A stretch of DNA of 21,717 nucleotides from a virus. Positions 3,969 to 21,717 of the stretch are shown here, piece by piece (the first letter of the stretch is position 1; each line of letters starts with the position of its first letter). The position numbers and the translations under genes are program-made. The stretch is from positions 1 to 21,717 of IMG/VR virus record IMGVR_UViG_3300024520_000545; one strand, given 5' to 3'. Under the pieces are notes generated by a model that had not been told where the DNA came from, made no database searches, and was given only the letters and a program-made list of their open reading frames with translations.

Positions 3969-4681
3969 TAGCTCATATCCTGCCCAGCGACAAACCCATA
4001 CCAAGTAGGTGTAGCGCCGCCATCAATGGTCATAAACGTAATAATATCTATGTCGGTAGCACCCGTACTTAATGTCGGTGCAGTACCACCAGCCCATTTC
4101 ACGAGAGTAGTAGCACCACTCACCTGAAACACTCCAGCACGAGAACCTGAAGCGTCCTGAGTTAAAATCAGGGTAAGGCTCGTACCGGCTTGAAGACCCG
4201 CAGCGGCAGGTAACGCAAAGGTCACCGTCGCAGTATCCAACGTATGTGTTTGGACGTTGCCGTTAGTTTCAGCAATCGCCGGTGCAGCACCAGTGTTCCC
4301 ACCGGCGTACACGGTTTCGGAATAATCCTTGTGAGTAACAGCCGATGCTATTTGATCGGCACCGGTAATAGCACCCGACAAAGTGACACCGTTAAGAGTC
4401 CCAGTGGTAAGAGTTATTGACGTAAGCGTCGAACCCCACGCAGTAGTCGAAGCACCAGTCCCTACAAGAACCTGATTCGTCGCAGCATTAGAGTCAGTAA
4501 TACCCAACTTCGTTTGCAACGCCACAATCGCCAACGAACCGTTGCTGTGCAATATATCGTGTTCAATATTTGTTGCATCTAAATCACTTGAAGAAGCCGG
4601 TTGAGGAAACTCAATCGTTAAGCCGGGTGACGCACTCGTGTCGTCAAGGGTGGTGGGATAACCTGAGGGGGGGATCGCCAT
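3968..4681 (-). CDS. tail-fibre-like virion protein
   Basis: 237 residues, ATG at 4681 with AGGA eight bases upstream. The N-terminal part (MAIPPSGYPTTLDDT, then about 38-62 IEHDILHSNGSLAIVALQTK followed by LGI) is a segment I recognise from many phage fibre proteins, probably the virion-attachment and coiled part. Next come short repeats (VLVGTGASTTAWGSTLTSI, LTTGTLNGVTLSGAITGA) typical of beta-helical shafts. The C-terminal domain (about 150-237) is beta-rich and ends TPTWYGFVAGQDMS, as in other aquatic phage fibres. There is no cysteine and no membrane segment. Its position after the capsid block and before the glycine-rich tip protein supports assembly of a host-recognition fibre from these neighbouring products. 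Family naming is from memory of similar proteins. Confidence 0.8.
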   Translation of the reverse strand: MAIPPSGYPTTLDDTSASPGLTIEFPQPASSSDLDATNIEHDILHSNGSLAIVALQTKLGITDSNAATNQVLVGTGASTTAWGSTLTSITLTTGTLNGVTLSGAITGADQIASAVTHKDYSETVYAGGNTGAAPAIAETNGNVQTHTLDTATVTFALPAAAGLQAGTSLTLILTQDASGSRAGVFQVSGATTLVKWAGGTAPTLSTGATDIDIITFMTIDGGATPTWYGFVAGQDMS

Positions 4682-5424: not shown

Positions 5425-6384
5425 TCAGGTGTTGTCGCCTATGGATGAGGATGACTCAATCCGCTGCAATGCTGCTTGACGGAAGATGGCATGACCCACC
5501 AGGTGGTACCAGCCCACAGGGTGGAACCGGCGCAAAGTATCGGTCACAGGACCGAACACTACGCTTGGGTCTTCCCCGAAGCCAGGAGCACGACTGAACG
5601 CTTTAGCTAGCGCCTGCCTACCAGCAACAAGAGTCTGGTAAACGTTAGTGGTGCCAGTAGCGCCAGCGTCATCCAATATGGGGGCACGAGGGTTTTCAAT
5701 CCACTCGATACCACCAAACACGCCAATGGAGCCGTTGCGAACAGCGGCACCTTCTTGACGGATTTGGTATTGAATAACGTCAGTTACTGCGGTCTGCTCG
5801 CGCAGATCGTAGGAAACGTCCGGGTGGACGAGGCCAATGTAGTTGCCGTTTTCAAACCCTGGAGCTGAAGCTGTACGCAACTCCGCTACCGCTTGACGCC
5901 CTTCCTGAGCACCAAATGTGTTGGCGTCAGAAACAGTGACACGGGACGTTGGGCGTGAGCCCGCTGATCCCTGAGCGTAAATGACGTTAGTGCCAGCGTT
6001 AGCGACATTGGAAACAAGTTTGTCAACAGAGTCAACCATGTTGTAACCAATAATGTTCGCAGCGTCAGCATCAACATTCAAGAATGATGTGCCACGCAGC
6101 TTCGCTGTAGTAATAACCGCATTACCGTATTCGGCAAGTGTCACGACCACAGTCGAGTCGCCCAAGGCGACGGCTGTAACGTCAGACGTTTCAGTCAAAG
6201 CTGAAGTGGCCTGAGCCATATTGTCATAGATGTTGAACTGGACTGATGCCCCGTTATGGGTTTGCGCCGTTGAGCGCACATCAGCGATCATTTCATACAT
6301 CGGTTGGGAACGGAAAGCGAAATAAGCAAGTTGCTGAAACGCCGCCGTATCAGAGGAAACGTCCCCTGTGCCTGTATAGGCCAT
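5425..6384 (-). CDS. major capsid protein, N4-gp56 family, HK97 fold
   Basis: 319 residues, ATG at 6384 with AAGGA seven bases upstream, one of the better ribosome sites here, fitting a highly expressed protein. The layout matches the N4-gp56 major capsid family: a short N-arm, a beta-rich segment (VQFNIYDNMAQATSALTE, about 48-66; TVVVTLAEYGNAV, 78-90), and a helix with NMVDSVDKLVSNVANAGTN (115-133). The peptidase-free P-domain region NGNYIGLVHPDVSYDLRE (179-196) and IGVFGGIEWIENPRAP (220-235) are very characteristic. There is no fused protease or delta domain and no cysteine. It forms the icosahedral shell, guided by the scaffold encoded just upstream. Family members occur in podoviruses and in other tailed phages, so the family alone does not fix the morphotype. 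Confidence 0.92.
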   Translation of the reverse strand: MAYTGTGDVSSDTAAFQQLAYFAFRSQPMYEMIADVRSTAQTHNGASVQFNIYDNMAQATSALTETSDVTAVALGDSTVVVTLAEYGNAVITTAKLRGTSFLNVDADAANIIGYNMVDSVDKLVSNVANAGTNVIYAQGSAGSRPTSRVTVSDANTFGAQEGRQAVAELRTASAPGFENGNYIGLVHPDVSYDLREQTAVTDVIQYQIRQEGAAVRNGSIGVFGGIEWIENPRAPILDDAGATGTTNVYQTLVAGRQALAKAFSRAPGFGEDPSVVFGPVTDTLRRFHPVGWYHLVGHAIFRQAALQRIESSSSIGDNT

Positions 6385-6429: not shown

Positions 6430-6906
6430 TTACTGGGCAGCACCCCACAGGTAACCTTCATTCTCCATCAACGCCCGAAGTTCTGCCTCGGTATTCGTTG
6501 CCGCTATACGAGAATTAAGATCGGCTTGTGACACCGGGTCACCACCTTCACCCGCCACAGCAATACGCTGTTCGGCGTCAAGTGCGTCACGTTTTATCGG
6601 TGAAGAACTAGATGCTGAAGCATTTCGTCCAACGAATCCAGCAGCTTCCGCTTCTGCACGGATAACTTCTGCATCCATTTCACCATCGTAAGCCTTTACA
6701 AAATAACTTACTTGTCGATCCTCAAGATCAAGTCCTGCGGATCTAAAAACGTCACGCCGCTCATAGCCACTCAATCTCTCTTGTGTTTCCGCAAGCTGGG
6801 TTTCAGCTTCCTTCGCACGTTTTTCGAGATCTCGTCGCCAGTTCGGTTTCGACTCGGTTGGGCTGTCAGAACCTTCTTCACCGAAAGTGGAGTCGGAATC
6901 TGTCAT
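6430..6906 (-). CDS. capsid scaffolding protein
   Basis: 158 residues, ATG at 6906 with GGTGA about seven bases upstream. The N-terminus is disordered and acidic (SDSTFGEEGSDSPTES). It is followed by a predicted coiled coil (about 23-50, RRDLEKRAKEAETQLAETQE) and the RDVFRSAGLD segment (51-60) often seen in phage scaffolds. The rest is acidic and helical. Size, composition and position directly before the capsid gene are those of a typical scaffold, which binds the inner face of the procapsid and leaves before packaging. There is no protease signature. The gap to the capsid gene is 45 bases with no clear structure. The candidate promoter lies about 90 bases upstream. Confidence 0.8.
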   Translation of the reverse strand: MTDSDSTFGEEGSDSPTESKPNWRRDLEKRAKEAETQLAETQERLSGYERRDVFRSAGLDLEDRQVSYFVKAYDGEMDAEVIRAEAEAAGFVGRNASASSSSPIKRDALDAEQRIAVAGEGGDPVSQADLNSRIAATNTEAELRALMENEGYLWGAAQ

Positions 6907-7032: not shown

Positions 7033-8157
7033 CTAGGTGGCTTTCCCCATTCCCCGTATGCCACTTCGATCCATGAAAGGCCCCCCAGCTTGCCGGAAAG
7101 CAGCGCTGCGGGCTTCCCCGGTTCGCCTTAAAGCGGTGGTGGCTTCCAAATCGGTACCGAATTCGCCGGCAGCTAACACATCGGCGGTTAAAGCTTCGCT
7201 GCCTATGAGTTCTCCTGTGAGCCCAGCCCGACGACTTAAACGTTGTTCCACTTCTCGAGTCTGAACTCCTGACTCTCGGAGAGCTTCAGCCGTTCCCATC
7301 GTCAAAGCCGCTCCGGTTGCTCTCACACTGGCAGCAGAAATTCCGGCTGCTTCTAGTTGGAGGCGAGCCTCAAAAATGTCTTTTGCTTTCGCAGGGTTCA
7401 GGTAGTAGGCCAGCAGATCGGTGTCAGTAATGTTGTAGAAGTCTGCGAGTTGTTGCCGGGTTTCAATGTTCGCGGTTCTGACTGCGGCGTCGGCTACACC
7501 GATCCGGGTTTGGAGTTCTGCTTCGGATACGTCTCCTACGAGCCATGCAGTGAAGTCTGATGCTTCGTCGTAATATTCTTCTCCTAAGCCTGCTTGGCGG
7601 AGGGTGGATCGGTAGGCTCGTTCGAGTTTTAAGACTTCGCCTTCGCTGAGGCGAGGCAATTTGAGGTCTGCTCGTTCAGCCATGACGGGGAACCGGTCTT
7701 TGTATTCTTGTGTTTTTCTGATTTCTTGGGTGACTGCGAGGTCGGAAGCGCCGTCGATAAGCATTTGTTCTACGTCGTCCACGAGGCTTACGGGGAGGCC
7801 GAGTTGGACTACGAACAGGTCGTACACGAGGTCGTATGCGGATTCGGCGTTAAGTTGTTTCAGGTCTTCTTGATCTGCGAGAAGATTTTGGAAGCGCGTC
7901 GACAGACTTTCGTAGTCGTTACGGATCTGCCTTAATGCTGCGCTGTCCTCTTCTTCAACCTCTTCTTCAACCTCTTCTTCAACCTCTTCTTCAACCTCTT
8001 CTTCATCGTCAACACATTGCTGTAACCCTTCGTCCCAATGCTGACCCACCGGACAACTTTTATCGACTTCCTCAACCTCTTCTTCAAGATCTTCATAGTA
8101 AGTAACGCCTTCACTGCCGCGAGGTTCAAACGCTGCAGGATCATCAATAAAAGCCAT
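7033..8157 (-). CDS. putative internal virion protein with acidic EEEV repeat
   Basis: 374 residues, ATG at 8157 overlapping the previous TAA (TAATG). The N-terminal 70 residues are very acidic: EEEVEEVD, then a two-cysteine motif CPVGQHWDEGLQQC (Cys35, Cys48), then a run of EEEV repeats (about 52-71). The remainder is helical. Segments such as QEIRKTQEYKDRFPVM, GEVLKLERAYRSTLRQAGL, DFTAWLVGDVSEAEL and LNPAKAKDIFEARL resemble a helical protein I recall from phages of Actinobacteria, where it accompanies large virion proteins. No enzymatic motif is visible. It is the last gene of the internal-protein set and is followed by the candidate promoter. A role inside the capsid or in DNA ejection is inferred from context. 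Confidence 0.65.
   Translation of the reverse strand: MAFIDDPAAFEPRGSEGVTYYEDLEEEVEEVDKSCPVGQHWDEGLQQCVDDEEEVEEEVEEEVEEEVEEEDSAALRQIRNDYESLSTRFQNLLADQEDLKQLNAESAYDLVYDLFVVQLGLPVSLVDDVEQMLIDGASDLAVTQEIRKTQEYKDRFPVMAERADLKLPRLSEGEVLKLERAYRSTLRQAGLGEEYYDEASDFTAWLVGDVSEAELQTRIGVADAAVRTANIETRQQLADFYNITDTDLLAYYLNPAKAKDIFEARLQLEAAGISAASVRATGAALTMGTAEALRESGVQTREVEQRLSRRAGLTGELIGSEALTADVLAAGEFGTDLEATTALRRTGEARSAAFRQAGGPFMDRSGIRGMGKAT
7947..8006. repeat. five tandem 12-base repeats, unit CCTCTTCTTCAA
   Basis: Units lie at 7947, 7959, 7971, 7983 and 7995; the last ends in T instead of A. A separate copy is at 8076-8087. On the minus strand each encodes Leu/Val-Glu-Glu-Glu-type units of the acidic N-terminal run in the 374-residue protein. 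The in-frame length means copy-number change by slippage would keep the frame. Confidence 0.95.
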
Positions 8158-9776
8158 TACGCCACCACACCCATCATACGACCCACATTATCAACCATCC
8201 GCCGAGCCGAATTCCTGGCATTCTGCGTGAACTGCCACTCAGGAAGATTACGCACAAACGTTTGCGTCTGAGACAAACTCATCGGCCCCTCCCCCGGACC
8301 AGGAGACAGAATCGGTTGGAACCGAGGATCGTTCATCAAATCCACATCAGATAACTCGAGGAGTTGCCCGATGCGTTGCTTGTACGGAGAGAAATAAGCC
8401 CGCATGGATACACCTTGATCAATGAGGCCGGCAAGAGAAGGAAATGCGCCTTTAGCTTGTTCCCGGTACATTGCTTCCAACGAACCCAAACTTTCCTCAC
8501 CCTTATAAATATTCCACGCATAATCGTAAGCATCTTCTGTGCCTAACGGTATGTAATATTTCGCGGCCATATCCTGAACGGATTGTTCGTTGGAAAGAAT
8601 CGTGCCTCGAGCGAGTTCTTCGGGACCGAGGTCGTTGACGCCTTGTAAAGCGCTGCGAATATCGTAAATGTCGTATCCGAAACGGGTAGCAGTGGTTGCT
8701 AAGTCATCGAGCAACGCCTGGTTGTCTCCTAACCAGTTCAACCCGATGAGTTGCGCTTCTCGGAGAATGAGGTCACGTTGACTGTCGATGAGAGCGTCGC
8801 GTCCTTCGGGGCCTTCTGCCCAGAAGTCCATGTCAAAGTTTCTGGCGGTTTCAGCGTTGTCGGCGAACCATTGGGTGCCTTGAATCCATCCCAACACTTC
8901 ATCATCCGACATCCCCTCGTTCTCCGGTAACGACAACCACTCCATAACATTCATTACCCCTTTAGGGGTTTCCACGTTGAACTTCTCAAGATCTTGTCGG
9001 AAGAACAGTGCAGCCGTAAACTTTTCGCGGATAACGGCAAGCGTGTCGTCGTCCAAAGCACCAATAAGCTGACCCGCTTCGCTACTGGGGGGCACCTCTT
9101 CAAGGGGATGTTCACCAACTGCGCCACCGAACGGACGCTGAGAAATTTGGGGGTGTTCACCAACTGCGGCAGCTCCCGACCCACGCTCTGGCGCTAATCC
9201 GGCTTCTGCTTCGTTTAACGCATTCCATTCGGGGCCACCGGGGGTGGATTCGTCTATGCGATCTGGAATTGTTTGCTCCCCCCGTTCTTCCTCTGGGTCA
9301 AGAAACTGAGGAACGGCGGCTTCACCCTCTATTTGTAAAGAATCCCAGTATTCTTGACTGGCTTCATCTAACTGGGCAGCGTCGCTAAGACCAGCGATTA
9401 TGGAAGCAGCACCTGGGACAGTGAACGAATTAGGCGCATTCTTGAACCATTGGATAGCAGCTAAACGTTCAGCTTCGTCTTTGGGATCTCCTGAAGGGTC
9501 TAAGGCTTCTGCGGGAGCGTTAGCTAGCCACGCTTCTAATTCTCTTACAGCTTCATCAGTGAGTTGGCGGTCAGCTTTTGCCCCGTCTTTCCCAAAAATT
9601 TCTGCTAATGCTTTTTCAACTTCGTAAGTGTCGCGTGCAGAAGCGCGCGCTATACCCGTTCTTGGTTGAAAATTGTTGATGCGGTCTACAACATCTTCTT
9701 GTGACGTATTCCGAAGATAATCAATAATGTCTTCAACCAAAGCAACAGCATTATCTTTAAGTTCCAAGATATTCAT
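8157..9776 (-). CDS. putative internal virion protein
   Basis: 539 residues, ATG at 9776 with a TAATG overlap to the previous gene. It is helical at the N-terminus (1-130). A low-complexity linker follows (about 165-235) that contains a duplicated AVGEHP element. The C-terminal half includes WLGDNQALLDDLATTATRFG, AAKYYIPLGTEDAYDYAWNI, SLEAMYREQAKGAFPSLAGL and YFSPYKQRIGQLLEL. This last pattern, ending in a basic helix (ARNSARRMVDNVGRMMG), resembles a repeated module of large virion proteins in actinophages as I remember them. It has no cysteine and no catalytic signature. It sits between two other unknown virion genes in a tightly coupled operon. Function is inferred from context only. Confidence 0.6.
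   Translation of the reverse strand: MNILELKDNAVALVEDIIDYLRNTSQEDVVDRINNFQPRTGIARASARDTYEVEKALAEIFGKDGAKADRQLTDEAVRELEAWLANAPAEALDPSGDPKDEAERLAAIQWFKNAPNSFTVPGAASIIAGLSDAAQLDEASQEYWDSLQIEGEAAVPQFLDPEEERGEQTIPDRIDESTPGGPEWNALNEAEAGLAPERGSGAAAVGEHPQISQRPFGGAVGEHPLEEVPPSSEAGQLIGALDDDTLAVIREKFTAALFFRQDLEKFNVETPKGVMNVMEWLSLPENEGMSDDEVLGWIQGTQWFADNAETARNFDMDFWAEGPEGRDALIDSQRDLILREAQLIGLNWLGDNQALLDDLATTATRFGYDIYDIRSALQGVNDLGPEELARGTILSNEQSVQDMAAKYYIPLGTEDAYDYAWNIYKGEESLGSLEAMYREQAKGAFPSLAGLIDQGVSMRAYFSPYKQRIGQLLELSDVDLMNDPRFQPILSPGPGEGPMSLSQTQTFVRNLPEWQFTQNARNSARRMVDNVGRMMGVVA
9109..9168. repeat. 15-base direct repeat, copies 45 bases apart
   Basis: TGTTCACCAACTGCG occurs at 9109-9123 and again at 9154-9168. 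The spacing is 15 codons, so both copies are in frame and encode AVGEHP twice in the linker of the 539-residue protein. Confidence 0.9.
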
Positions 9777-10507
9777 TACAGTTTCTCCAAGGCACGCATA
9801 ATTGACTGAGCCGCCTTATTCTCACGCGTCACCTGCACCCGCTCAGGATTCAAACCCCGAGCACTTTCCCTCGCCTGAGCCGAAACATTCGTAAGACTAA
9901 TAGTTTGACCTGCGTCTTGAGCTGCGTGGATGCCAGCAACAAAGCTTTGTAACTGTCCCTCAGAGGGCGTGCGTCCCACTTCGGTTCTGTAAGCCGTTGT
10001 ATACAAATTGTTGAGTGTCGCTCGATCCAGATAGGACACCGCATATTTTTCCATCAGATCTCCGGCTGCTTCGTTGAACGCTTCGTCGGTGAACCCCGAG
10101 AAACGTTCCTCCAACGTGGGTAACATTTCTGCTCCCCTTGCGGTGCCCATTTCAAAAGCCACTTCCGATTCGGTCATAGCATTCCCTAAAGCCCAAGCAA
10201 CGTGATAGGGATCATAAATCTCGTCTATTGCGGTGATCGCCAACCCGTTCATCAAACCTTCAGTGAACAATGCTTGCGCTAAACGTTCCTGCTCTTCAAC
10301 AGACAACCCCATGTATTCTTCAATGATTTGTGAACGCCCCACCGCAGCCCCAGGGCCGAAACGGAAAAGGCTTCCTTCTTCTTCGAGTCCTTCCCGCGAC
10401 GGGGGACGCCTACCCATAATGGCTTCACCACCGACGCCCCCCACAACCGCCGCATTCATCCCTCCAGCTTGGGCTGTGTTGAATCGTTGGTCAAATTCGG
10501 TTGTCAT
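9776..10507 (-). CDS. hypothetical virion-associated protein
   Basis: 243 residues, ATG at 10507 overlapping the stop of the giant gene by four bases (ATGA). The N-terminus (1-45) is Gly/Ala-rich and probably disordered (AAVVGGVGGEAIMG). After that it is predicted mostly helical, with LSVEEQERLAQALF, FTDEAFNEAAGDLMEKYAVSYL and a basic C-terminal part (NPERVQVTRENKAAQSIMRALEKL). It has no cysteine, no membrane segment and no recognised family. Tight coupling to the giant protein gene suggests stoichiometric co-production and possibly physical association inside the virion. The gene call is firm, the role inferred. Confidence 0.6.
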   Translation of the reverse strand: MTTEFDQRFNTAQAGGMNAAVVGGVGGEAIMGRRPPSREGLEEEGSLFRFGPGAAVGRSQIIEEYMGLSVEEQERLAQALFTEGLMNGLAITAIDEIYDPYHVAWALGNAMTESEVAFEMGTARGAEMLPTLEERFSGFTDEAFNEAAGDLMEKYAVSYLDRATLNNLYTTAYRTEVGRTPSEGQLQSFVAGIHAAQDAGQTISLTNVSAQARESARGLNPERVQVTRENKAAQSIMRALEKL

Positions 10508-13500
10508 ATTTGCGCCCTAAGCGTAAGTTCCCAAGTAAGGGGATCTAAATCGTCAAACTCCAAGAATCGGGTGAACACCGCCGAAAATTCGGGAATGTCC
10601 CGATATTGACGTTTAGTGAACTCCCACCATTCTGCAACATCTTCGTTGGCCCGTGCATCGAGAGAACCGGAACCCCCAGCGTTCTTACGTTCCGCCAGTT
10701 CCGCTACCGCTACTTTTCGGTCTGCTAAATAATCTACAAGAACATCAATTTCTGGGCGAAGACGCAACGTCTCGTTTCCAACAATGGCATAGAGCCCTTT
10801 GAAAAGTTTTTGATCTTTGGCTTTGTCTCTCACATTGAACGCATCCCACCACGCCGGGTGTGACGCAGCGAGTTGACTGATTTCCCATTGCATCCACTGC
10901 TGAACTTTTGGGTTGGCTCGAATAGAAGAGTTCCCTCCGGCTTGACCGATGGAGTCCAGTTCGGCGTCTCGAATGTCGTAAAGTTCAGACAGTTTCGTCC
11001 ATCCCTGCGACACATCTGCGCTTTCCATGTAGTCCGCTAACGGAACCCGTTCACGCATTTTTGTTTCCGCACCCGGTGTCACAGATTCCGATTGCTGGCG
11101 GCGGTACACAGCTTCATGGAACGCACCAGTAGTTTGCGACCCATACGAACCAGTGATCAACCCACCCAGCTCCGGGTGGTTGACGACAAGTTCAGCGAAT
11201 CCCGCTTTCTCAAATTCTTCCATGCTTTCCAAGGTTGGAGCCACACCGTTGTTGGTGCGAGTCATGCGTGAAGTCAAAGCCCAGAACTCGTCACCGTGCT
11301 GTTGGATAAACAACTCGGTGGCGTTCGCTGGGTCTTCTTCACGCAATCTGCGAAGGTTCTCAATATAAAACTGGTAAGGCGACGAAACTTGAAGGGTGGT
11401 CGGCATTGTGAATGATGCGAACGCTCGAGCGAACATGAGTGCTTTGGTTTCTTCCAACACTTCTTTTTGGAAAATTGCTTTGTCGGTGGCAAGAATTTCT
11501 GAGAACCGGTCAGGGTATTCACCTGACAGTGACGGTTGCTGACGTAACCGCACCTCTTTGCTTTGCGCCACCTGCAGCATCATTCGTTCACGTTCACCAC
11601 TCCCAGCGAACGTACCCACAAGACGTTTCGTCCACGCCGGGAACAACTGTCCCAAAGCACGATCAGTCATCGAGACGCCTTGAGGTAAACCGTAAGGAAA
11701 AGCCCACGACACTGCGTCATACAATTTGGGTTCGGCAACAGACATTTCGGACATGGGAATCAACCCGATAGGACCGAAACTTGGACCGCCGGCGGCAAGC
11801 ATTGACAACCCGTCTTTGCTGAACCGCATAGTGTTCCCAACGAAAGGTTCCGTTAACGCCCCAGCGCCGGGCCAGTCAGGACCAATGCTGGCGATACGTC
11901 CAATGGTTTGCGGTAAACGAAACACCATCCACCGGTTACCGTCATCATCTTCAGTGATAGGAATTGAATTGAAGTTGTCAAGAACCCGAGCCACATACAT
12001 GGGGTTCTCGGCGGCAATACCAGCCCATCGAGTGATCACTTCTTGCCATGCACCGAGGAACGGCATGAAAGTCGACATCACTTCTTGCAGGCGAGTTGCT
12101 TCCGTCAAATCGTACAGAAGGTAACGAACGTCCTCTAACGCTTTATTGCGAGCCTCGTTTTCAATGCGGTCAAGTTGTTTGGGTTCAATAAGGTACCGCT
12201 GTTCGTCGCTGTCCCAATAAGCGGAAAGGCGGCGAGTTACCTCAGTCTGGAACCGATGCCTGAAGTAAGGGTTACGAGTCAAATTGTCAGTGGGGAGTGT
12301 CGCCAAAATATTGAACCCGTTTTCGGCGTAACGTTTCAAACGGCCACTGACCATGTTGCGGGGAGAAACCCCAGCGGTTTGCCCCACCGTAGTATCCATA
12401 CCGCTACGTCCAAGAAGGCTAGCTGAACGTTCCGGTCCTATTTCGTCAAGAATTTCTGTGACGCTGGCCCAGCGAATATCGCGTCCTTGGCCGGTAGCCA
12501 TCTTCTCTCGCAGTTTCGTGAACTCGTCAACAACGTCGTAGCCTGCTCCAGTGCTGGGAAGTAAACGGGGAAGCATTTGGTTGCTGGTGTCATAAACTGC
12601 TTCCACAAGAGCTTTCACAGCTTCAGGAAGATTGGGGACACCCAAATCGTCAAGGACACGCAACCCGGCGCTCGTCCCCAAGAAATCCAAAAGATCTTGT
12701 TTGTAGGTACGAACGTCAGCGGTGTTTGCCCACACCAACCGCAAATACTGGTTGCCGGGTAGATCAGGGGCACCGGTTGCCCGCCACTGACGGTTCACCA
12801 CTCGTTCCCAAGCCTGAGCGAACTGGCGTTCACCAACGTCGCCGCGGACAAGAGGCATCCACTCGGTGGCTGCGTCAATGTCTGCTCGCACCCGTGAACT
12901 GCCTTGTTCAATAAGTCGGGACGCTGTCCGGTCAGCTGATACTCGACCCCGCCAAATTTCTTGGTTTGCTTTGGTGTCACCGAAAGCGTTACGAACCATG
13001 ACGCCACCCATGTAACTGGGGTTGCGGCCTGCTTTCTCCAACATGACACCGGCTTTGTCTAACATCTCTAAACCTTGTTCGGCTTCAGGAGTGACGGGGG
13101 CGTCTTTGTAGTGAAGTGCGATAGCGTCACGCAACGTTTTTTCTTGGGTGAGGAGAAGTTCGCCGGCTCGTCGCAACGATTCTTTCGCTGCTTCTAAATC
13201 CGGTCCCATTTCTTCTATCATTTTTTGTAACGCTATTTCGTTGTACGCCGTTTTGTCTTCAAGCCAAGCAGCGTGAGCCGTGGCGTAACTGCCGCTCACT
13301 GAACGGTCAGCACTTCTCAACGAGAGCATTCGCTCCCGTAACTCAAACAACCCCAAGCGCTCTACGTCATCAAAGTCGTGAATGTCTCGAAGACTTTCTA
13401 AAATATTGTTAAATACTTCTTCATCTCGCAAATAGCGTTCAAGTTCAAAGGGGTTTAACCCTTCAAAATACTCAACTATCTCCTCTTCAGTCATTCGGGA

Positions 13501-16500
13501 GAGAGTTTCTTCTAATTCAGCGTTAATAATTTCTCTATCCGCGCTACTGAACGGGGTGTCTTCGGCGATGCGGCGAGCAGTGGCCTCCAACTCGTCATCC
13601 AACTCCCCCATCTGACGACCAAAATCAGACATCTGATCTCGGTCCGCGAACTCGACACCTGCTCGACCCGCATAGAAATACGCGATGTCTTCATCCGCGT
13701 ATCCCTGCTCTTTCAAAATCTCATACAACGACTCTGTGCGTCGAGTCTCACGCGCATCAGGAAACGCACCGCCCTCCACATCGTATTCCCCTACGACAAA
13801 TTCATTCCCAAATTCATCAAAATCAGTTTCGTATGCCCGGCTGACATCGCTCGTAAATTCGTCCGAGCGGTACATTAGGTGTTCAATAAATTCTTGAGGG
13901 TCAGAGAACTGGAAAAGTTCGGCGTGAACCCCTTCGTATGCACCACCCTGAGCCAAACTTTGGAAATCGTCTAAATCTTCTACAGTAAGTTCGTCCAAAG
14001 TTTGAACAGTTTCGATGTAAGCCGCTTGGTCTAAAAGTTGGCGGCCTTCCATCACAAGATCATCAGAGAACCGTTCACCCAACGTGCGTTGCGCCAGTCG
14101 TTGCACCGTACGCCGTTGACTACCCAAAGCAAGAGCGTAACCGCCTACAGCTCCGACAGGTCCAAGAAGTCCGTAGCCTAGGAGGGTGCGGGCGGCGAGT
14201 CCTCGCTGGCGAGCAACTTTTCCCCATTCGTCGTAGATGAGGTCGCCTACGAGTGTTGTTGCAGCGTCGTCTCCGAATTGTTCTACGAATGATTGGTAAA
14301 CAAAGTAGTCGTCTGCGTCGATTTCGCTGATGGCTGCTTCGAGGGCTTCTCGTCCGAATTGGTTTTCGATAGCGTCCACAAGAACTTCGTTTAATGGTCC
14401 CCCAACGCCTTCTTTCCATTCTGGGTCCATGTGTTGACCTATGTCTGGTCCGACAGAAGCCAGTTCGTCCATGTCAATAAGACCGTCGGCTTCGTTCTGC
14501 GCCCAATATTGGGCAGAAAGGTCATCGAGGCTTGCCCCTAATTCGTCGGTGAGACGAAGAACCGATTCCATGTCGTTTGCGTCAATAGCGTCAGCGATCT
14601 GGTTAAGTAAATCGTCAACCATGTTGCCTACAGGCAAATTAAGCATTTGTTGTAGCGGCACAGATTGACCGCCCCCGGAACCTGGGGCTAAGAAGTTTCT
14701 GAGATCGTCAGTGGTAGCAATAGCCTCTAGCCCTCTTACGGCAGAGATACGCAACCCTTCCTGAGTTTCCCAAGCGTGACGTTCAGCGGTTATATTTTCA
14801 ACCGGTAAATTGTGACGGCGGGCTGATTGATTATCGTAAATGAGGTGGTAACGCTCAAGGTCTGTTGAAGTAATATCGTCTGGGTCTATACCTAATTCTG
14901 ATGCTATTGCGTTACGTTGGGCAGCAACTACTTCGTCTACTGAGCGCCCGCCACCAGTAATAACGTTGTCACGGGCGGCATCCTCACGAACTCTTTCAAA
15001 GAACCTTACAACGCTTAAAGTGCCGATGGTTTCATCAATACCGCCACGCAAGTCTGCTAGATCTTCAAGGTATTCTTCGTACCCGAGTTCTACATCTCCG
15101 CCTCGACGAGCAACATAGAAATGCGCTATGTCGTCTTCACTGTACCCGCTGCGACGACCTAGTTGAATTGAGTTAGTTGCATACAATGCGCGCCCTTGAT
15201 CATCAATTCCTATAGCTCTCTCCCCTGGAGGGATTGATGATCTTGCTTCTCGAAGTTCGTCAATAAATTCGTCGAAGAAAGTGTGAACTTCTGTTTCACG
15301 AATAATCTCAATTAACCGTACTGCAGGGTCGGTGAGGGGATCTGAATCAGCCTCTAACCTGTCGACAGCGTCCTCTAGGCGATTTACAACTTGTTCAAAT
15401 TGTTCATCACTTATGCGTAATAACCCTTCGTCTTGAATAGCTTCATAAAGGTCGTCGGTATCGTCATAAAAATATTCTAAAATTTCGTCTTGGAACTCAT
15501 CGAGATTAGTTCCAGAAGGAAGATCAGAAGGAAGATCTGGTTCCGCTTCGCGTAGTACGCCGCGCCCCGCCATTTCCTCAAACTCATCCAACGCCGGAGG
15601 AGCAGCAATATCTTCCAACACTCCCCGGTAAGCACCCAGGTCGTCGGCGTCGCGAATCACATCGGCAACAGCCGATGCCAGATATCGAACCGTTGGATCA
15701 TCAGGGTCATACATCGCCCTAAAGAAATTCTCAACGCTTTCCTCTATGGTGTCCCCATAACCCGGAATAATTTCACGATGATACGGGTCGTCAACTACAT
15801 GACGGTACACCGCAGGAAGAAGCCCCTCAATCACCTCATCGGAAAGCCCCAACTCGTCTTTCATTCGTTTAGCGATCAAATCTTCAACATCAATGCCTTT
15901 ACGTTTCAGCAACTCCACCCGGTAATTACCGAACCCGTGACGCATCGCTTTGAACTGCCCCAACGCCCCCACCACAGAAGCAACACGAAGCACTTCGTCA
16001 CCAACAACTCGCAGCGGCCACGCCGGACGCAACAACACTGCGGGACGCCAGACATTCATAATGGCGTCAGCAACATCGGTACTCAACCGGGCGGGGGTTT
16101 GAATAACAGACGAATTGCGGATAGCGCGAATCCCTCGAGCCGGAGCAGTTTTTCCGACTGTTCCTAACGTTTCCTCTACCCCAAGTTTCCGTAACTCGGA
16201 ATAAATCAGGTCGTAGCGGGGAACTATTTTGCTGGCGGCAAGCTGCCGGGTGGTGAGGGGAGTGGTGAGGCGTGTCCAAACCCCTGTCTCTGGATCTCTG
16301 AAATTAAGTTTGCTTCCTAAAACGTCAGCACCGAAACGACCCGCCCACGGTTTACCGGTCGCAAGCATTTTTTCTGCGCCAACTATCCGATCATTTAACG
16401 CATCTGCGAGAGCCGCTCGTGCTTGACCCAACGTTTTTCCTTGAGGGAAATCTTTTGTTTTTTCTGGGTAAATGGCTCTGGCGAGACGTTTGTTGAAATC

Positions 16501-18813
16501 ACGGGTGGTGTATTCAAAGAACTCTCGCCGAGAATCAGCGCCTTCCAAGCGAAGAAATCTGCCTTCTAAAACAGCGGCGTCGTCTGCGCTTAACAAGCGT
16601 TGCCCATTAATTTTGATGCGACCGTAGTCTCGAAGCATGCGTTGCACTTGCGCTGTGGATCGAGGAAGGTCATCAAAGTTGACGTAACGTTGAGCAACGT
16701 AGTCACTGACGACTTGGACCATTCGTCGTCCTTTGACAGCCCGTGCGGGACTAGCCAAAAGTTTTGTGGCTGATCCGGTGAGGGAGTCACCTGCGCGGAT
16801 GGCGAGGGGAGCATATATCTCACGCTCCATCGCCGCTCTGCTTCGCATCTCTTCTCGCACCACTCTGGCAGATACGGCGTCGTCTCCTAATCCTTGAAGT
16901 AACCCTCTCGCTCCGGCTTCTTCAATGAAAGCTCGCGGCCCTGCTACGGAGTCAGCTAACCATTGGTCTATGGCGGCGTCTGCGAGATCCATACTGTCTT
17001 GGTCGTTGGCTGCTATGAAACGTGCGACGGGGTTGCCGTATTCGCCGCCGACTCGGGGTGCGTAACTTTCCATTTGGCGTGCATCGAAACGGCTTTTGAT
17101 GTCGAAAACGAATCCGAAGTCCCATTCTTCGCTTGGGGCTAACGCTCCGTAGATGCCGTCCACGAGTTCGTCTCGTTTTGTAACTAGGTTTTCTAATTCT
17201 GGTGTCAACCTGCGTAGTTGACTCATTTCTATTGGGAAATCCTCAGACCCACTTACGAAACCGGTGTCACCTGTGAAATCGTCTGCGAACCAACGACGGA
17301 AAGCTGATTCTTCAAGGGGGAATGACATATAGGCTTCTTCTCGAGCCATGTCTAAAAGTCCTTGATTCCAAGCGTCGCCCGCATCGATGTTGCCGGTGAG
17401 AAGAAAACCAAGATCCTCTCCGGCTTCATACAGTTCGTTTATTTCTTCTGGCCCCAGTGTTTCTTCAAAATACTCTTGTAACCGGTTTTGGTCCCATGTC
17501 TGAATTTCGTCCCATCGGTCGTCCGGGGAATCAGCGGAGTCCCAGTCAACTAAACGGCGACGACGCTCAATAGCTTCAGGGGTTGTAGTAGCGTGCCTCC
17601 CTCTCGCCATTACGTTGTCGCGTAGGCGGTTGATCTGGTTATCTACATCTTCGAGTTCGTCAAACGCAGAAGCGAAAACACCTGGGGCTGGGTCGGGAGC
17701 TGACGCAATGTCGCCTAGTAACCCCCCCTGCATTTCTGATGCTGCTTCTTGCGCCGCTTTCACAGCGTTCTGATCACCAAGCATGTAAAGGTAATGGTTG
17801 CGACGCATCTCAGAGTTCGTTGCTCGAGCCAACGCCATCGCCACTTCAGGCTTCATGCGTTTACGTCCAACCATTTGTTGAATCTCAACGGCTCGCTGCC
17901 CCACCAAATCTTCCCACTCGGGACTGTTTTTGGTGGCTTGACGGATACGTTCCGAAACAGGTAACGCTTCTATCGCCGTATCCAGATTTGTCCAGTTTTT
18001 AGAATTGACGGCTTCTTGGGCACGAGACGAAGTGAAGTTTTGGATCTCGTCGCCGGTAAGTTTTCTGCCGTACAACGTGCGTGTGGGAGTCATCTCCCCT
18101 CGCCGTGTACGCCGCAACATTCGTGCAACGTCTGTTGTGCCTGTCGCCGCGAACCGTCCCGCCCGCGCCAGTTGCATGTATTTGCCGGGAATGAGTAACG
18201 GATCAAGGAACAAGGTTTCAGCGAAGTCCCATGCACCGGAATACAAGTTGAAGAACGAGCTTTGTGCGGCTTCGTCTACTGCTCGAGGATCTCTGGGGTC
18301 GACTCGCATTGTGGCGAGAGCCATTGCCCGTCCAAGACTTACCCCGCGCCCTCCGCCTTCTTCGTTGCCGTAAAGAGCGGCATCAATTTCGGAGGTGCCG
18401 CTAGCAATTTCCCACGCTGTTTCGTAACTGTCAAGGTCGAAGAATCCCCCTAAGCCTTCTTGGGTGGCAATGTTGAATCCGAGAAGCCCAGCGGAAATGG
18501 GGCGTTCTATCCACTGGTCTTGCCATGCGTCCACACGACCTAAAACTTCAGTTGTGAACGTGCCAACGGGTTTCCGAATTTCTTCGGGTATTGCCCCAAT
18601 GCTTTGACCGCCGATTCCTTCGGGACCGATAGCGGTCATCATGAGCCCACCGACAACGTCGTCTTGGATGATGCCGAGGAGAGTGTTTCCGAAACCTTCG
18701 TATTCGTCTTCGGTGAACGGGGCGCGGGCTATATCAAACGTAAGATCTTTCCATGCTTCACCGTGATCAACGAGCGCCCCCCCGATCTTCGACACTCGAT
18801 CCCAGAACCCCAT
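10504..18813 (-). CDS. giant cysteine-free putative internal (ejection) virion protein
   Basis: 2769 residues in one uninterrupted frame of 8310 bases, ATG at 18813 overlapping the upstream TAA (TAATG). I find no cysteine in it. The N-terminal third is helical. WRPAVLLRPAWPLRVVGDEVLR (near 920-940) is a basic aromatic segment I recall from large actinophage virion proteins. About 1080-1900 is very acidic and contains two related elements, GYSEDDIAHFYVARRGG (from 1223) and GYADEDIAYFYAGRAG (from 1704). A lone hydrophobic stretch, LLGYGLLGPVGAVGGYALALG, lies near 1545-1566 between basic residues. The C-terminal third has STFMPFLGAWQEVITRW (about 2245-2262) and resembles domains of large polyvalent proteins carried in phage heads. 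I looked for T7/N4-type RNA polymerase, HExxH peptidase and P-loop motifs and saw none. Storage in the head and ejection with DNA is inferred from size, context and the missing cysteine. Confidence 0.7.
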   Translation of the reverse strand: MGFWDRVSKIGGALVDHGEAWKDLTFDIARAPFTEDEYEGFGNTLLGIIQDDVVGGLMMTAIGPEGIGGQSIGAIPEEIRKPVGTFTTEVLGRVDAWQDQWIERPISAGLLGFNIATQEGLGGFFDLDSYETAWEIASGTSEIDAALYGNEEGGGRGVSLGRAMALATMRVDPRDPRAVDEAAQSSFFNLYSGAWDFAETLFLDPLLIPGKYMQLARAGRFAATGTTDVARMLRRTRRGEMTPTRTLYGRKLTGDEIQNFTSSRAQEAVNSKNWTNLDTAIEALPVSERIRQATKNSPEWEDLVGQRAVEIQQMVGRKRMKPEVAMALARATNSEMRRNHYLYMLGDQNAVKAAQEAASEMQGGLLGDIASAPDPAPGVFASAFDELEDVDNQINRLRDNVMARGRHATTTPEAIERRRRLVDWDSADSPDDRWDEIQTWDQNRLQEYFEETLGPEEINELYEAGEDLGFLLTGNIDAGDAWNQGLLDMAREEAYMSFPLEESAFRRWFADDFTGDTGFVSGSEDFPIEMSQLRRLTPELENLVTKRDELVDGIYGALAPSEEWDFGFVFDIKSRFDARQMESYAPRVGGEYGNPVARFIAANDQDSMDLADAAIDQWLADSVAGPRAFIEEAGARGLLQGLGDDAVSARVVREEMRSRAAMEREIYAPLAIRAGDSLTGSATKLLASPARAVKGRRMVQVVSDYVAQRYVNFDDLPRSTAQVQRMLRDYGRIKINGQRLLSADDAAVLEGRFLRLEGADSRREFFEYTTRDFNKRLARAIYPEKTKDFPQGKTLGQARAALADALNDRIVGAEKMLATGKPWAGRFGADVLGSKLNFRDPETGVWTRLTTPLTTRQLAASKIVPRYDLIYSELRKLGVEETLGTVGKTAPARGIRAIRNSSVIQTPARLSTDVADAIMNVWRPAVLLRPAWPLRVVGDEVLRVASVVGALGQFKAMRHGFGNYRVELLKRKGIDVEDLIAKRMKDELGLSDEVIEGLLPAVYRHVVDDPYHREIIPGYGDTIEESVENFFRAMYDPDDPTVRYLASAVADVIRDADDLGAYRGVLEDIAAPPALDEFEEMAGRGVLREAEPDLPSDLPSGTNLDEFQDEILEYFYDDTDDLYEAIQDEGLLRISDEQFEQVVNRLEDAVDRLEADSDPLTDPAVRLIEIIRETEVHTFFDEFIDELREARSSIPPGERAIGIDDQGRALYATNSIQLGRRSGYSEDDIAHFYVARRGGDVELGYEEYLEDLADLRGGIDETIGTLSVVRFFERVREDAARDNVITGGGRSVDEVVAAQRNAIASELGIDPDDITSTDLERYHLIYDNQSARRHNLPVENITAERHAWETQEGLRISAVRGLEAIATTDDLRNFLAPGSGGGQSVPLQQMLNLPVGNMVDDLLNQIADAIDANDMESVLRLTDELGASLDDLSAQYWAQNEADGLIDMDELASVGPDIGQHMDPEWKEGVGGPLNEVLVDAIENQFGREALEAAISEIDADDYFVYQSFVEQFGDDAATTLVGDLIYDEWGKVARQRGLAARTLLGYGLLGPVGAVGGYALALGSQRRTVQRLAQRTLGERFSDDLVMEGRQLLDQAAYIETVQTLDELTVEDLDDFQSLAQGGAYEGVHAELFQFSDPQEFIEHLMYRSDEFTSDVSRAYETDFDEFGNEFVVGEYDVEGGAFPDARETRRTESLYEILKEQGYADEDIAYFYAGRAGVEFADRDQMSDFGRQMGELDDELEATARRIAEDTPFSSADREIINAELEETLSRMTEEEIVEYFEGLNPFELERYLRDEEVFNNILESLRDIHDFDDVERLGLFELRERMLSLRSADRSVSGSYATAHAAWLEDKTAYNEIALQKMIEEMGPDLEAAKESLRRAGELLLTQEKTLRDAIALHYKDAPVTPEAEQGLEMLDKAGVMLEKAGRNPSYMGGVMVRNAFGDTKANQEIWRGRVSADRTASRLIEQGSSRVRADIDAATEWMPLVRGDVGERQFAQAWERVVNRQWRATGAPDLPGNQYLRLVWANTADVRTYKQDLLDFLGTSAGLRVLDDLGVPNLPEAVKALVEAVYDTSNQMLPRLLPSTGAGYDVVDEFTKLREKMATGQGRDIRWASVTEILDEIGPERSASLLGRSGMDTTVGQTAGVSPRNMVSGRLKRYAENGFNILATLPTDNLTRNPYFRHRFQTEVTRRLSAYWDSDEQRYLIEPKQLDRIENEARNKALEDVRYLLYDLTEATRLQEVMSTFMPFLGAWQEVITRWAGIAAENPMYVARVLDNFNSIPITEDDDGNRWMVFRLPQTIGRIASIGPDWPGAGALTEPFVGNTMRFSKDGLSMLAAGGPSFGPIGLIPMSEMSVAEPKLYDAVSWAFPYGLPQGVSMTDRALGQLFPAWTKRLVGTFAGSGERERMMLQVAQSKEVRLRQQPSLSGEYPDRFSEILATDKAIFQKEVLEETKALMFARAFASFTMPTTLQVSSPYQFYIENLRRLREEDPANATELFIQQHGDEFWALTSRMTRTNNGVAPTLESMEEFEKAGFAELVVNHPELGGLITGSYGSQTTGAFHEAVYRRQQSESVTPGAETKMRERVPLADYMESADVSQGWTKLSELYDIRDAELDSIGQAGGNSSIRANPKVQQWMQWEISQLAASHPAWWDAFNVRDKAKDQKLFKGLYAIVGNETLRLRPEIDVLVDYLADRKVAVAELAERKNAGGSGSLDARANEDVAEWWEFTKRQYRDIPEFSAVFTRFLEFDDLDPLTWELTLRAQI

Positions 18814-19163
18814 TACACAATGCCGTTGCGAGTATTAGCAACCCGCATTTGACGCAACAACTTTTTTGTTTCCCGTGAAGCAAAGGGTTGTGAGGCCACC
18901 ATTTCCAAGAGAGGTGTCATTGCCGCCATTGCTTCGTTTGAAACAACGGTGGGGGCGCGAGGGGGAAGTCCCACCCCTGGAGTCATAATGGATTCACCGG
19001 GTCGTTCCGTTGCGCGAGTGAATTCACCTACTGCACCGGGGGCAGGGAACTGCGCCATTTGAGGTAACGGCATTGCCCGTTGCGCTTCTTCTTGAGCTAC
19101 CACTTCACCATACGGCTGGTCTTTAGCGGTCTGAATTTTTTGTCCTGCACCTTTGCGTGGCAT
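18813..19163 (-). CDS. small hypothetical protein between portal and giant gene
   Basis: 116 residues, ATG at 19163 with a one-base overlap to the portal stop and another to the giant gene start at 18813. The N-terminus is basic (MPRKGAGQKIQTAKDQ). The middle is rich in Pro, Ala and Met and looks disordered (MPLPQMAQFPAPGAVGEF). The C-terminus forms a probable helix (NEAMAAMTPLLEMVASQ, ETKKLLRQMRVANTR). It has no cysteine and no family I recognise. Position suggests a head or portal-associated factor, for instance a small chaperone or adaptor for the internal protein, but nothing in the sequence proves it. Confidence 0.65.
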   Translation of the reverse strand: MPRKGAGQKIQTAKDQPYGEVVAQEEAQRAMPLPQMAQFPAPGAVGEFTRATERPGESIMTPGVGLPPRAPTVVSNEAMAAMTPLLEMVASQPFASRETKKLLRQMRVANTRNGIV

Positions 19164-20923
19164 TACAACGCCCCTAACAGTTGACCAAGATCAACTTCTT
19201 CTTCAGCGGCTCCCGCTGCTTCTACCATTGCTTCGGCTCCCATCCCAGGCATCGCCAACCCTGGTTGGGCTTCCGCTGCGCTGGCTTCCACCATTGTGGC
19301 TTGCCGCTCTTGTGCTTCTTTCTGCACTTTCTCTACAGCTTCAGCGAGTTCCAACTGGTTCGTGGAAACGAGTTCCATGATGCGAGCCAAATCGGCGGGC
19401 GGAATAGCGCCTTCCGATGCTTGCTGTTGAATGGAGTTAAGTAACGCTTGTTCCAGTTGTTCGGATACCACGGCGTCATGTTCAAATTCTGGGTCTTCGA
19501 CCAGCGGGTCGATAGCCATGAACGAACGCTTCGACATGGTACCCATCCCAACTCGCTGACCTCCACCAATAACAAGGTTGTTGATGTCCGTTCCCGCTTG
19601 GGAGTAGGTGACTACGTTGTCTGTGGAATCGAAGTTGGTGTTGGGGGTGTAATCCACTCGACCTTTAGCGTTCTTCGTGGTGACATAAAACGATTTGCCT
19701 TTGTTGCCGGCATACGTTTTTGCCATGTTGATAGCAATCTCGTTTTCTTCTTGAAGGGAACGCGCCATGATTCGTTGCGCTTCTTGCACGGGGAAGTCCA
19801 CAACAGCGGACAGTACGGCGTCGCCACGGCGACCGGTACGAATGTTGGTGGGTGACTCCCCACCGAACTCTGCGGGAATACCAGCAGTTAAACGCTGTGC
19901 ACGTTCCAAACGGTCGATTGCGGGGTTCGTCATATAACCGGGTTGCATTTGCATGTCATGCAGCTCACCGCCACGAATAACACCCACCTCGCCAGTGAGC
20001 CCGTCGGCGGGGTTCACAATTTGTGGGGTTTCTCCGGGTCGACCTATCAGCCAAGTATCAGGGAACACCCCTTTTTGTACGGCGATCACTTCGAGCGCCA
20101 TCAGGCGGGCTTGCATCTGATACATGCCGAGGATGCCATCGAACTGGCCTTGGCTTCCGTCAAGGTTGATGCGTTCGGCGCACACTACGGGGCATTCCCC
20201 CAGGGGGTTTGCTACCCGTTCCAACTCGACAACAATTCTTTCATCAGAATCGGGGGATGTTCCAAACAACCCCGTTTTGACTGGGCCTCGCATCGCTATC
20301 AACACCTGTTCTTCGGCGTCAACGTATTCAATTATTTCGATTGCCTGGTCGTCTCCGGCTCCACTGTCGCCTTGAAACATGCGGGCAGTGGAGGGATACA
20401 TGGAACGCAAATATCCGAGGGAGCGTTCATATGCGAACACCACATCTCGGGGACGCATGTCGTCCACACCGAGAAGCGTTGCCGGATACGCGGTCAACGG
20501 GTCACGCAAATGCCACTCGGGTACACCTTTCTCCGGGTTGAATCGGAGCTGGGTGATGGTGGTGGCGTAACCGATGAGTTGGCGGGCACGTTTCGCAACT
20601 TGCAAATCCATGCGACTGTTTTCCCACCAACCAAAAATGGCTTTACGTCGAATCTCGGCGTTATCTCTCGACCGTTTCCGGGCGGGGTCGGTGGGGGGAC
20701 AGTAAATGTCGGGACGCGTAGACGCTATTCGCATAGCGGTCTGATCCAACCCTTGTGCCAGCAGGTTCGCTACCGCTGATTGTTCATCCGAGTTCAACTC
20801 GGGGAGGGGAACAATTACGTCCCCGTTGTAGTAGTCACGCAGGTTACGCATGCGGGACTTCGCCCCATCGGACGCTTGATTGCGTGACCCATAGATGGCG
20901 ACGATTTCCTCAATAGTTTTCAC
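19163..20923 (-). CDS. portal protein
   Basis: 586 residues, GTG at 20923 directly after the terminase TAA, with AGG about ten bases upstream; no nearby ATG fits better. Portal-like features are MRNLRDYYNGDVIVPLPEL (25-43), VANLLAQGLDQTAMRIASTRPDIY, a wing/stem region with WHLRDPLTAYPA, and RAQRLTAGIPAEFGGESPTN (about 335-355). A long helix follows (PVQEAQRIMARSLQEENEIAIN). The C-terminus is Gln/Ala-rich and acidic, as in many portals whose tail contacts scaffold or internal proteins. The protein should form the twelve-fold ring at one vertex, docking the terminase and passing DNA. Terminase-then-portal order supports the call. The family looks SPP1-gp6-like, but I cannot confirm which Pfam group it falls in. 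Confidence 0.85.
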   Translation of the reverse strand: MKTIEEIVAIYGSRNQASDGAKSRMRNLRDYYNGDVIVPLPELNSDEQSAVANLLAQGLDQTAMRIASTRPDIYCPPTDPARKRSRDNAEIRRKAIFGWWENSRMDLQVAKRARQLIGYATTITQLRFNPEKGVPEWHLRDPLTAYPATLLGVDDMRPRDVVFAYERSLGYLRSMYPSTARMFQGDSGAGDDQAIEIIEYVDAEEQVLIAMRGPVKTGLFGTSPDSDERIVVELERVANPLGECPVVCAERINLDGSQGQFDGILGMYQMQARLMALEVIAVQKGVFPDTWLIGRPGETPQIVNPADGLTGEVGVIRGGELHDMQMQPGYMTNPAIDRLERAQRLTAGIPAEFGGESPTNIRTGRRGDAVLSAVVDFPVQEAQRIMARSLQEENEIAINMAKTYAGNKGKSFYVTTKNAKGRVDYTPNTNFDSTDNVVTYSQAGTDINNLVIGGGQRVGMGTMSKRSFMAIDPLVEDPEFEHDAVVSEQLEQALLNSIQQQASEGAIPPADLARIMELVSTNQLELAEAVEKVQKEAQERQATMVEASAAEAQPGLAMPGMGAEAMVEAAGAAEEEVDLGQLLGAL

Positions 20924-21717
20924 TTACAACCTGCCAGACGAAGCGTACTCACTATCTTGCCCTGAAATCCAAGTGGGTCGCCACTGTTTCACCCCAATAC
21001 CTTGGGGGACATATAGCTTTTCAAGATTGTGTTCTAGGAACCATTGTGCCATAACGCAGTCATCGGTGCGGGAACCGGTCCCCTCGGCGTTCCACCGGGT
21101 CACTTCGTTTATTAACAGAAGTGAGTGGGGGCGGGCTTCTGTGTTCTGTTTACCGGGTAAACGTATTCTTCCGACACGCCATAACGGAGCCAACATTTGT
21201 ACCCCATACTTCGGATCGCCTTTGTTTCGGGAATGCGTGTAATGGGGAACAAGTTCCACGCCACGCATCGCAGCCCACCGTTTGAAATGGTCGTACTGCA
21301 AAATGAATTTCTGTGCGGCGTTCGCTTCGATGATCCAATGTGTGAGAGGGCGACCCATGTCGTTGGTGATTTGCCACCAATCTTCAGCTACCCCAGTGAA
21401 CTTTTGTTCGTTATGGTTCCAGTCAAGGAAAGCGGGGGCATCCATTTTGCGGCGATACGATTCCAACAGATACCGGAACTGGGTTTCGGGGTTGTACGCC
21501 CAGCATTGCAACGCCCAAAACTTGGAGGGGGAAGGATCAGCAGTCGCTACGACGAACAGGTCACCGGAAACACCTGCCGGAATTTCCCACAGGTCACGGT
21601 CGTTGTCCCAACATCCCACATAATCCACACCGTCTGCGCCAACACCGCCACTTACCCACAACGGGTCAACGAGAACACTGGCAGGGTTTACGTCTGACTG
21701 CTGGTACAAGACCTCGA
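20924..21717 (-). CDS. large terminase subunit, C-terminal nuclease part (5' end beyond window)
   Basis: The frame is open through the right edge (codons for Glu-Val-Leu precede TyrGlnGln), so this is the distal part of a longer gene. Numbering from the TTG at 21709, about 261 residues are present. An RNase H-like nuclease domain is visible: VVATADPSPSKFWALQ (catalytic Asp58), HWIIEANAAQKFILQ (Glu128) and RTDDCVMAQWF (Asp216/217), the expected three acidic metal-binding positions. This domain cuts concatemeric DNA at the start and end of packaging. The ATPase half (Walker A and B) must lie to the right of the window. Stop and portal start are adjacent without spacing, so the two are one transcript. 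The TTG should not be taken as the true start. Confidence 0.88.
   Translation of the reverse strand, partial: EVLYQQSDVNPASVLVDPLWVSGGVGADGVDYVGCWDNDRDLWEIPAGVSGDLFVVATADPSPSKFWALQCWAYNPETQFRYLLESYRRKMDAPAFLDWNHNEQKFTGVAEDWWQITNDMGRPLTHWIIEANAAQKFILQYDHFKRWAAMRGVELVPHYTHSRNKGDPKYGVQMLAPLWRVGRIRLPGKQNTEARPHSLLLINEVTRWNAEGTGSRTDDCVMAQWFLEHNLEKLYVPQGIGVKQWRPTWISGQDSEYASSGRL

Follow-up and report, generated by a model that had tools for sequence, protein, structure and literature searches.

Why would a protein of 2769 residues, together with three of its neighbors, contain no cysteine? The question is raised by a locus in a viral DNA sequence of 21,717 nucleotides (IMG/VR virus record IMGVR_UViG_3300024520_000545, positions 1 to 21,717), the whole of which is referred to here as the window. 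The locus, at positions 8157-19163, is a block of four open reading frames (ORFs) encoding proteins of 116, 2769, 243, and 539 amino acids. Cysteine is excluded from these products, the exclusion is deep and specific to this residue among relatives with conserved gene order, and it recurs in unrelated proteins that are ejected by other phages. The block probably encodes ejection proteins of a short-tailed phage that are under strong selection against thiols. We infer from these patterns that its products are present in the virion, that they are ejected, and that the need for threading drives the selection.

Cysteine exclusion in the block and its relatives

All four ORFs lie on the minus strand, and neighbors overlap start to stop by 1-4 nucleotides. 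The giant ORF (10504..18813) encodes a 309 kDa protein. The 116-residue basic protein (18813..19163, isoelectric point 10.0) is encoded between the portal and the giant, while the 243-residue protein (9776..10507) and the 539-residue protein (8157..9776) are the products of the first and second genes after the giant. None of the four contains cysteine. The first-pass annotation had reported this absence, and the recount is exact, with 0 cysteines in 3667 residues. The other 13 products of the window contain 27 cysteines in 3364 residues (8.0 per 1000; Fisher p = 2e-9). At the structural-protein rate of the family (5.3 per 1000), about 19 cysteines would be expected in the four products (P of about 4e-9). 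The reading frame of the giant gene has no TGY codon (TGT or TGC), where about 47 would be expected from base composition alone; the two alternative frames have 83 and 115.

A single genome would not isolate the block, because a putative scaffold (6430-6906), the capsid protein (5425-6384), and a tail-like protein (3968-4681) are also free of cysteine in the window. The relatives do isolate it. Scans of IMG/VR gave 116 ORFs homologous to the giant, 76 of which were left after removing those more than 90% alike; L002 and L003 are also relatives. The 76 dereplicated giants contain 9 cysteines in 119,385 residues, and 5 of the 9 are in over-extended N-termini that precede a plausible later start. 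Only four are credible, and these are found in L007 (780-6695; C1822 and C1830), L034 (4758-9557; C1083), and L081 (5-5053; C501). The giant of L008 has the same cysteine pair as that of L007. Homologues that regularly contain cysteine, named by the first-pass annotation as the finding that would count against its proposal, were looked for directly, and the outcome is approximately 4 credible cysteines in approximately 119,000 dereplicated residues.

The first gene after the giant, in the position of the 243-residue protein, has 0 cysteines in 14,710 dereplicated residues, and the two genes that follow it have 0.45 and 0.34 per 1000, respectively. Control genes of the relatives have 8.1 (terminase large subunit, TerL), 4.7 (portal), 2.9 (capsid), and 6.9 (post-capsid genes) per 1000. 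It is because the capsid proteins of the relatives carry cysteine that the block stands apart.

When TerL, portal, and capsid encoded on the same contigs are taken as the reference, cysteine is depleted about 80-fold (ratio 0.01), while the ratios of the other 19 residues range from 0.75 to 1.43. The giant and its neighbor keep near-normal tryptophan, phenylalanine, leucine, methionine, and histidine. General avoidance of oxidation was considered and is ruled out by the retention of methionine, tryptophan, and histidine. TGY codons occur 9 times in frame in the giant homologues versus 3415 and 6066 times out of frame. When the homologues are grouped at 40% identity (25 clusters, 42,837 residues), 4 cysteines remain beyond the first 60 residues versus 227 expected at the control rate. 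Only 4 of 1520 well-filled alignment columns ever show cysteine, compared with 267 for tryptophan. In the window giant, approximately 865 residues occupy alignment columns that no more than 5% of relatives share, and cysteine is absent from these as well. The loss of cysteine in the giant family is neither chance nor composition, and its extension to lineage-specific segments shows that the pattern is not passively inherited.

The giant is homologous to the giant of the Beephvirinae (tblastn matches in 29 Streptomyces phage records, best E 1e-29). Abafar, a member of this group, is a podovirus by description (PMC11536984). The Beephvirinae Manuel and Dennebes share with the window the order portal, small gene(s), giant, helper genes, scaffold, and capsid, and their giant (approximately 21-25% identity) is likewise without cysteine. 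It is 1635-1646 amino acids long, about 1100 shorter than the window giant. The Beephvirinae also differ by an extra NlpC/P60 gene after the giant and by several small genes between portal and giant. Counterparts of the 116-residue protein, similar in size and position, are free of cysteine as well (118 amino acids in L003; 139 amino acids in Manuel gp08). Genes of the Beephvirinae block carry no annotation beyond hypothetical, peptidase, glycosylase, or minor tail protein. The second gene after the giant in the Streptomyces-type relatives encodes a protein with a single cysteine, Cys33, which lies within the DCSG motif of an NlpC/P60 domain and is expected to be the catalytic nucleophile.

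Recurrence in unrelated ejection proteins and its limits

The exclusion is also present in ejection proteins of other phages. There are 0 cysteines in 18,852 residues of T7 gp15 and gp16 orthologues, 0 in 18,954 residues of P22 gp20 and gp16, 0 in 7,439 residues of N4 gp51 and gp52 orthologues plus N4 gp50, and 2 in 9,451 residues of SU10 gp20-24, at positions 3 and 8. The non-ejected structural proteins have 5.4 (T7), 11.5 (P22), 4.0 (N4), and 8.3 (SU10) per 1000, these controls being structural proteins of a few phages without matching for length or helix content. Evidence for the ejection of these proteins has been published (PMC12633501, PMC9509320, PMC8954989, PMC10172136). The N4 virion RNA polymerase, gp50, has 0 cysteines in 3500 residues, in agreement with the first-pass annotation. 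A 2025 preprint (PMC12633501) reports gp50, gp51, and gp52 as the N4 ejection proteins and gp53 as a tail plug that stays tethered to the tail. Cysteine in this operon starts at gp53, immediately after the ejected gp52, and gp51 and gp52 differ sharply from gp53 and gp54.

In T7, N4, P22, SU10, P-SSP7, lambda, and HK97, the strongest cysteine deficit falls on an ORF for an ejected or tape-measure protein, and gp15-17 rank first in epsilon15. This ranking was made with the answers known and in regions chosen for structural genes; it serves to check consistency and was not blind.

Gene arrangement can be compared as well. N4 (Schitoviridae) gp50-gp51-gp52 resembles the window block in having a cysteine-free giant and cysteine-free partners in one operon, and the two phages share a capsid protein family. 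They differ in that gp50 is an RNA polymerase, the gene order is not the same, and the giants have no detectable homology. T7 gp14-gp15-gp16 and P22 gp7-gp20-gp16 each encode two large cysteine-free proteins together with a smaller partner; unlike the window, these genes are downstream of the tail genes and the small partner (gp14, gp7) can carry cysteine. The tape measure proteins lambda H, HK97 gp16, and T5 pb2 are large tail-channel proteins with 0 cysteines in 853, 1089, and 1219 residues, respectively. In contrast to the window giant, they determine length and belong to long-tailed phages. Perhaps they are under the same rule. Cysteine-free large proteins encoded together in a structural module are found in the block; this feature is a correlate found here and not an accepted criterion.

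The suggestion of the first-pass annotation that the block may mark an ejected proteome gains support from the exclusion in homologues and in unrelated ejection proteins. With somewhat less assurance, we also favor a broader statement: that cysteine exclusion is a general convergent rule for large tail-ejected proteins in short-tailed phages, sufficient to read an ejected proteome from sequence, and that the window block is a new ejection system with a giant of unrecognized fold.

Several observations weigh against these readings. P1 DarB, reported to be co-ejected, has 9 cysteines in 2255 residues, and 2 are present among the 501 residues of T4 Alt that were read; the rule fails for at least two enzymes carried in myovirus heads. 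P22 gp7 and T7 gp14 have 4.4 and 5.1 per 1000 (mostly Cys2 in gp14), and small pore-type partners seem to be exempt. In epsilon15 gp13-17 (2.6 per 1000) and crAss001 gp45-50 (0.9 per 1000), cysteine is reduced without being absent. Low cysteine is also seen in scaffolds and in the P22 tail needle, for which no entry into the cell is known. No homology was detected between the giant and N4 gp50 (hhalign probability 0.1%, E 0.61) or T7 gp16 (hhalign E 0.6 over 20 columns), and no sequence homology to SU10 gp24 was detected; the giant as a homologue of any of these three was dropped for lack of detectable similarity. A profile search of the block proteins and fold searches of the modelled parts gave no match in the PDB. 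Finally, a literature search found no virion proteomics or ejection data for the giant family.

The position of the residual cysteines can also be described. A single cysteine at residue 2 (MC... or VC... start) is present in T7 gp14 (L178:13729-14319), T7 gp6.7 (L178:4865-5131), P-SSP7 gp14 (L186:10956-11558), and epsilon15 gp14 (L182:11586-12128). Cys2 occurs in 7 of 10 dereplicated T7 gp14 orthologues. N-terminal modification or membrane anchoring is a possible role for Cys2 in small internal virion proteins. The giant cargo proteins of crAss001 (L193) have their cysteines mostly at the extreme ends (gp47 C2339/2341; gp49 C5/1349; gp50 C5 and C2404/2412).

Proposed mechanism and competing explanations

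The block proteins would be stored in the head close to the portal, leave by way of portal and tail before the DNA, and build or extend a channel into the cell. The chains would leave through a channel of approximately 35 angstrom, at least partly unfolded, and refold in the envelope, outside the reducing cytoplasm. If a thiol were exposed while the chain is stored, threaded, or refolded, it could form a disulfide or mixed adduct, and either product may jam or misfold a protein present in only a few copies. Strong purifying selection would strip cysteine from these proteins and tolerate an irreplaceable thiol, such as the expected catalytic cysteine of the NlpC/P60 domain in the Streptomyces relatives. 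Ejection channels are approximately 35 angstrom wide, and partial unfolding has been proposed for T7 gp16, N4 gp50, and crAss cargo (PMC8954989, PMC12633501, PMC10172136). Virion disulfides are known, and those of phage Milano can lock movement (PMC10811340). The thiol hazard is favored here because of these narrow channels with proposed partial unfolding and because of the Milano virion disulfides.

The most durable alternative accepts ejection and places the hazard in the oxidizing extracytoplasmic space, with its periplasmic Dsb enzymes, instead of the narrow channel. It is one of two reasons proposed for the N4-like RNA polymerases (PMC3715699), and the movement-blocking disulfides that virion cysteines can make in Milano are compatible with it. 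However, the exclusion is equal in relatives that infect Gram-positive Streptomyces, and the terminal protein of the Bacillus phage phi29 has 0 cysteines in 266 residues, which argues that the Gram-negative periplasm is not the sole cause. The external virion proteins of the same phages, moreover, have approximately 3-14 cysteines per 1000, although they too are located outside the cytoplasm. This explanation is clearly the less probable.

An unlikely explanation is that no functional exclusion exists and that long helical, scaffold-like, or coiled virion proteins are poor in cysteine by composition. The T7 scaffold gp9 (0.3 per 1000) and the P22 needle (1.1 per 1000) are low, and helices predominate where window proteins could be modelled. 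Against this, cysteine is the only residue missing from the giant and its neighbor, the contrast between the adjoining N4 gp51/52 and gp53/54 is sharp, and the T7 and P22 ejection proteins have zero cysteines in more than 37,000 residues, which is under scaffold levels. As a separate observation, scaffolds leave the procapsid at maturation and are nearly free of cysteine: 0 in 158 residues in the window (6430-6906), 1 in 3118 in T7 gp9 orthologues (T7 locus L178:7951-8874), and 5 in 1822 in P22 (L180:3893-4804).

Less likely again is a role for the giant as a virion-packaged RNA polymerase or other N4-type enzyme, free of cysteine for the reason already published. Its size, the N4-gp56-family capsid protein, and the absence of cysteine as in N4 gp50 would fit, but the giant has no profile similarity to gp50, no PDB profile match, and no polymerase family in Pfam, PHROGs, or NCBIfam. 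Shared descent from an ancestor that by chance lacked cysteine, with too little time to gain any, is scarcely credible even though all giants are one family, since identity in the C-terminal region falls to 12-25% with most columns turned over, lineage-specific inserts also lack cysteine, and families without detectable homology show the exclusion independently.

Gene content of the block and its meaning

The giant is a member of phrog_10618 (E=1.4e-41) and is proposed to be the largest ejection protein. It can be divided into three parts. The N-terminal region (amino acids 1-960; 15934..18813, minus strand) is common to the relatives in the alignments and contains an LDPL-GK motif. Amino acids 998-1851 (13261..15822, minus strand) are mostly segments rare in or absent from relatives and have no cysteine; the segments 998-1286, 1301-1343, 1355-1492, 1610-1697, and 1705-1851 are each present in at most 3 of 72 sequences. 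Two of the rare segments contain similar stretches, EDDIAHFYVA (amino acid 1226) and DEDIAYFYAG (amino acid 1707), perhaps a duplication, and blastp of the giant against itself reported no repeat. The conserved C-terminal region (amino acids 2098-2769; 10507..12522, minus strand) is predicted to be mainly helical (AlphaFold2 mean predicted local distance difference test score, pLDDT, 69.8). A fold search with this model gave no PDB match, and BFVD gave its own family only; the giant matches no known fold in the modelled part.

The 539-residue protein belongs to phrog_6654 (E=6e-15), and its C-terminal half is related to a Beephvirinae protein annotated as glycosylase or minor tail protein. Its AlphaFold2 model is helical and poor (pLDDT 60), and the search with it, which gave no PDB match, carries little weight. 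The third gene after the giant (7033..8157, minus strand) encodes a 374-residue protein (phrog_8424, E=3e-42) and probably also belongs to the ejection block. It is the exception there, with Cys35 and Cys48, 13 residues apart, CPVGQHWDEGLQQC, in a long acidic run. The same position has no cysteine in the marine relatives listed.

The block lies between the portal and the scaffold and capsid genes. The portal (19163..20923, minus strand; 3 cysteines) was assigned by position and a profile built with Beephvirinae portals, and the terminase large subunit (20924..21715, minus strand; 3 cysteines), which is cut by the record end, by position and a Beephvirinae TerL profile. The putative scaffold of 158 amino acids (minus strand; phrog_7813, E=3e-13; weak scaffold match phrog_3760) precedes the gene of the major capsid protein (minus strand), which is of the N4-gp56 family (TIGR04387, 100.2 bits with a cut-off of 60; phrog_1357). 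Portal, terminase, and capsid served as controls. A 2OG-Fe(II) oxygenase-like protein (2079-2681; phrog_61, E=7e-30) is encoded among the tail and lysis genes.

Searches against Pfam, NCBIfam, and PDB profiles found no domain in the four cysteine-free proteins, and a simple scan found no hydrophobic segment of membrane-spanning strength. A scan of genome contigs for host clues found no relative. No tail-tube protein was recognized in the annotation of the window, although no search was aimed at one.

The absence of cysteine from N4-type polymerases and its suggested aid to passage through the tail or periplasm have been published (PMC3715699, PMC2784036, PMC3915230). No statement extending the rule to T7, P22, SU10, or Beephvirinae proteins was found in open-licence papers, and the word 'cysteine' is absent from the main text of an ejection-protein review, the N4 and DEV structure papers, and the crAss001 atlas. 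The block is a probable, so far unannotated ejection module.

For N4, T7, and crAss-like phages, it is still open whether proteins larger than the tail channel get through as folded beads or in unfolded form. A thiol exclusion that can be read from sequence, if true, would support exposure of the chain in transit. It would also offer a quick annotation route for ejection proteins without common sequence, and the natural cysteine-free backbones would allow single cysteines to be placed as probes of the path.

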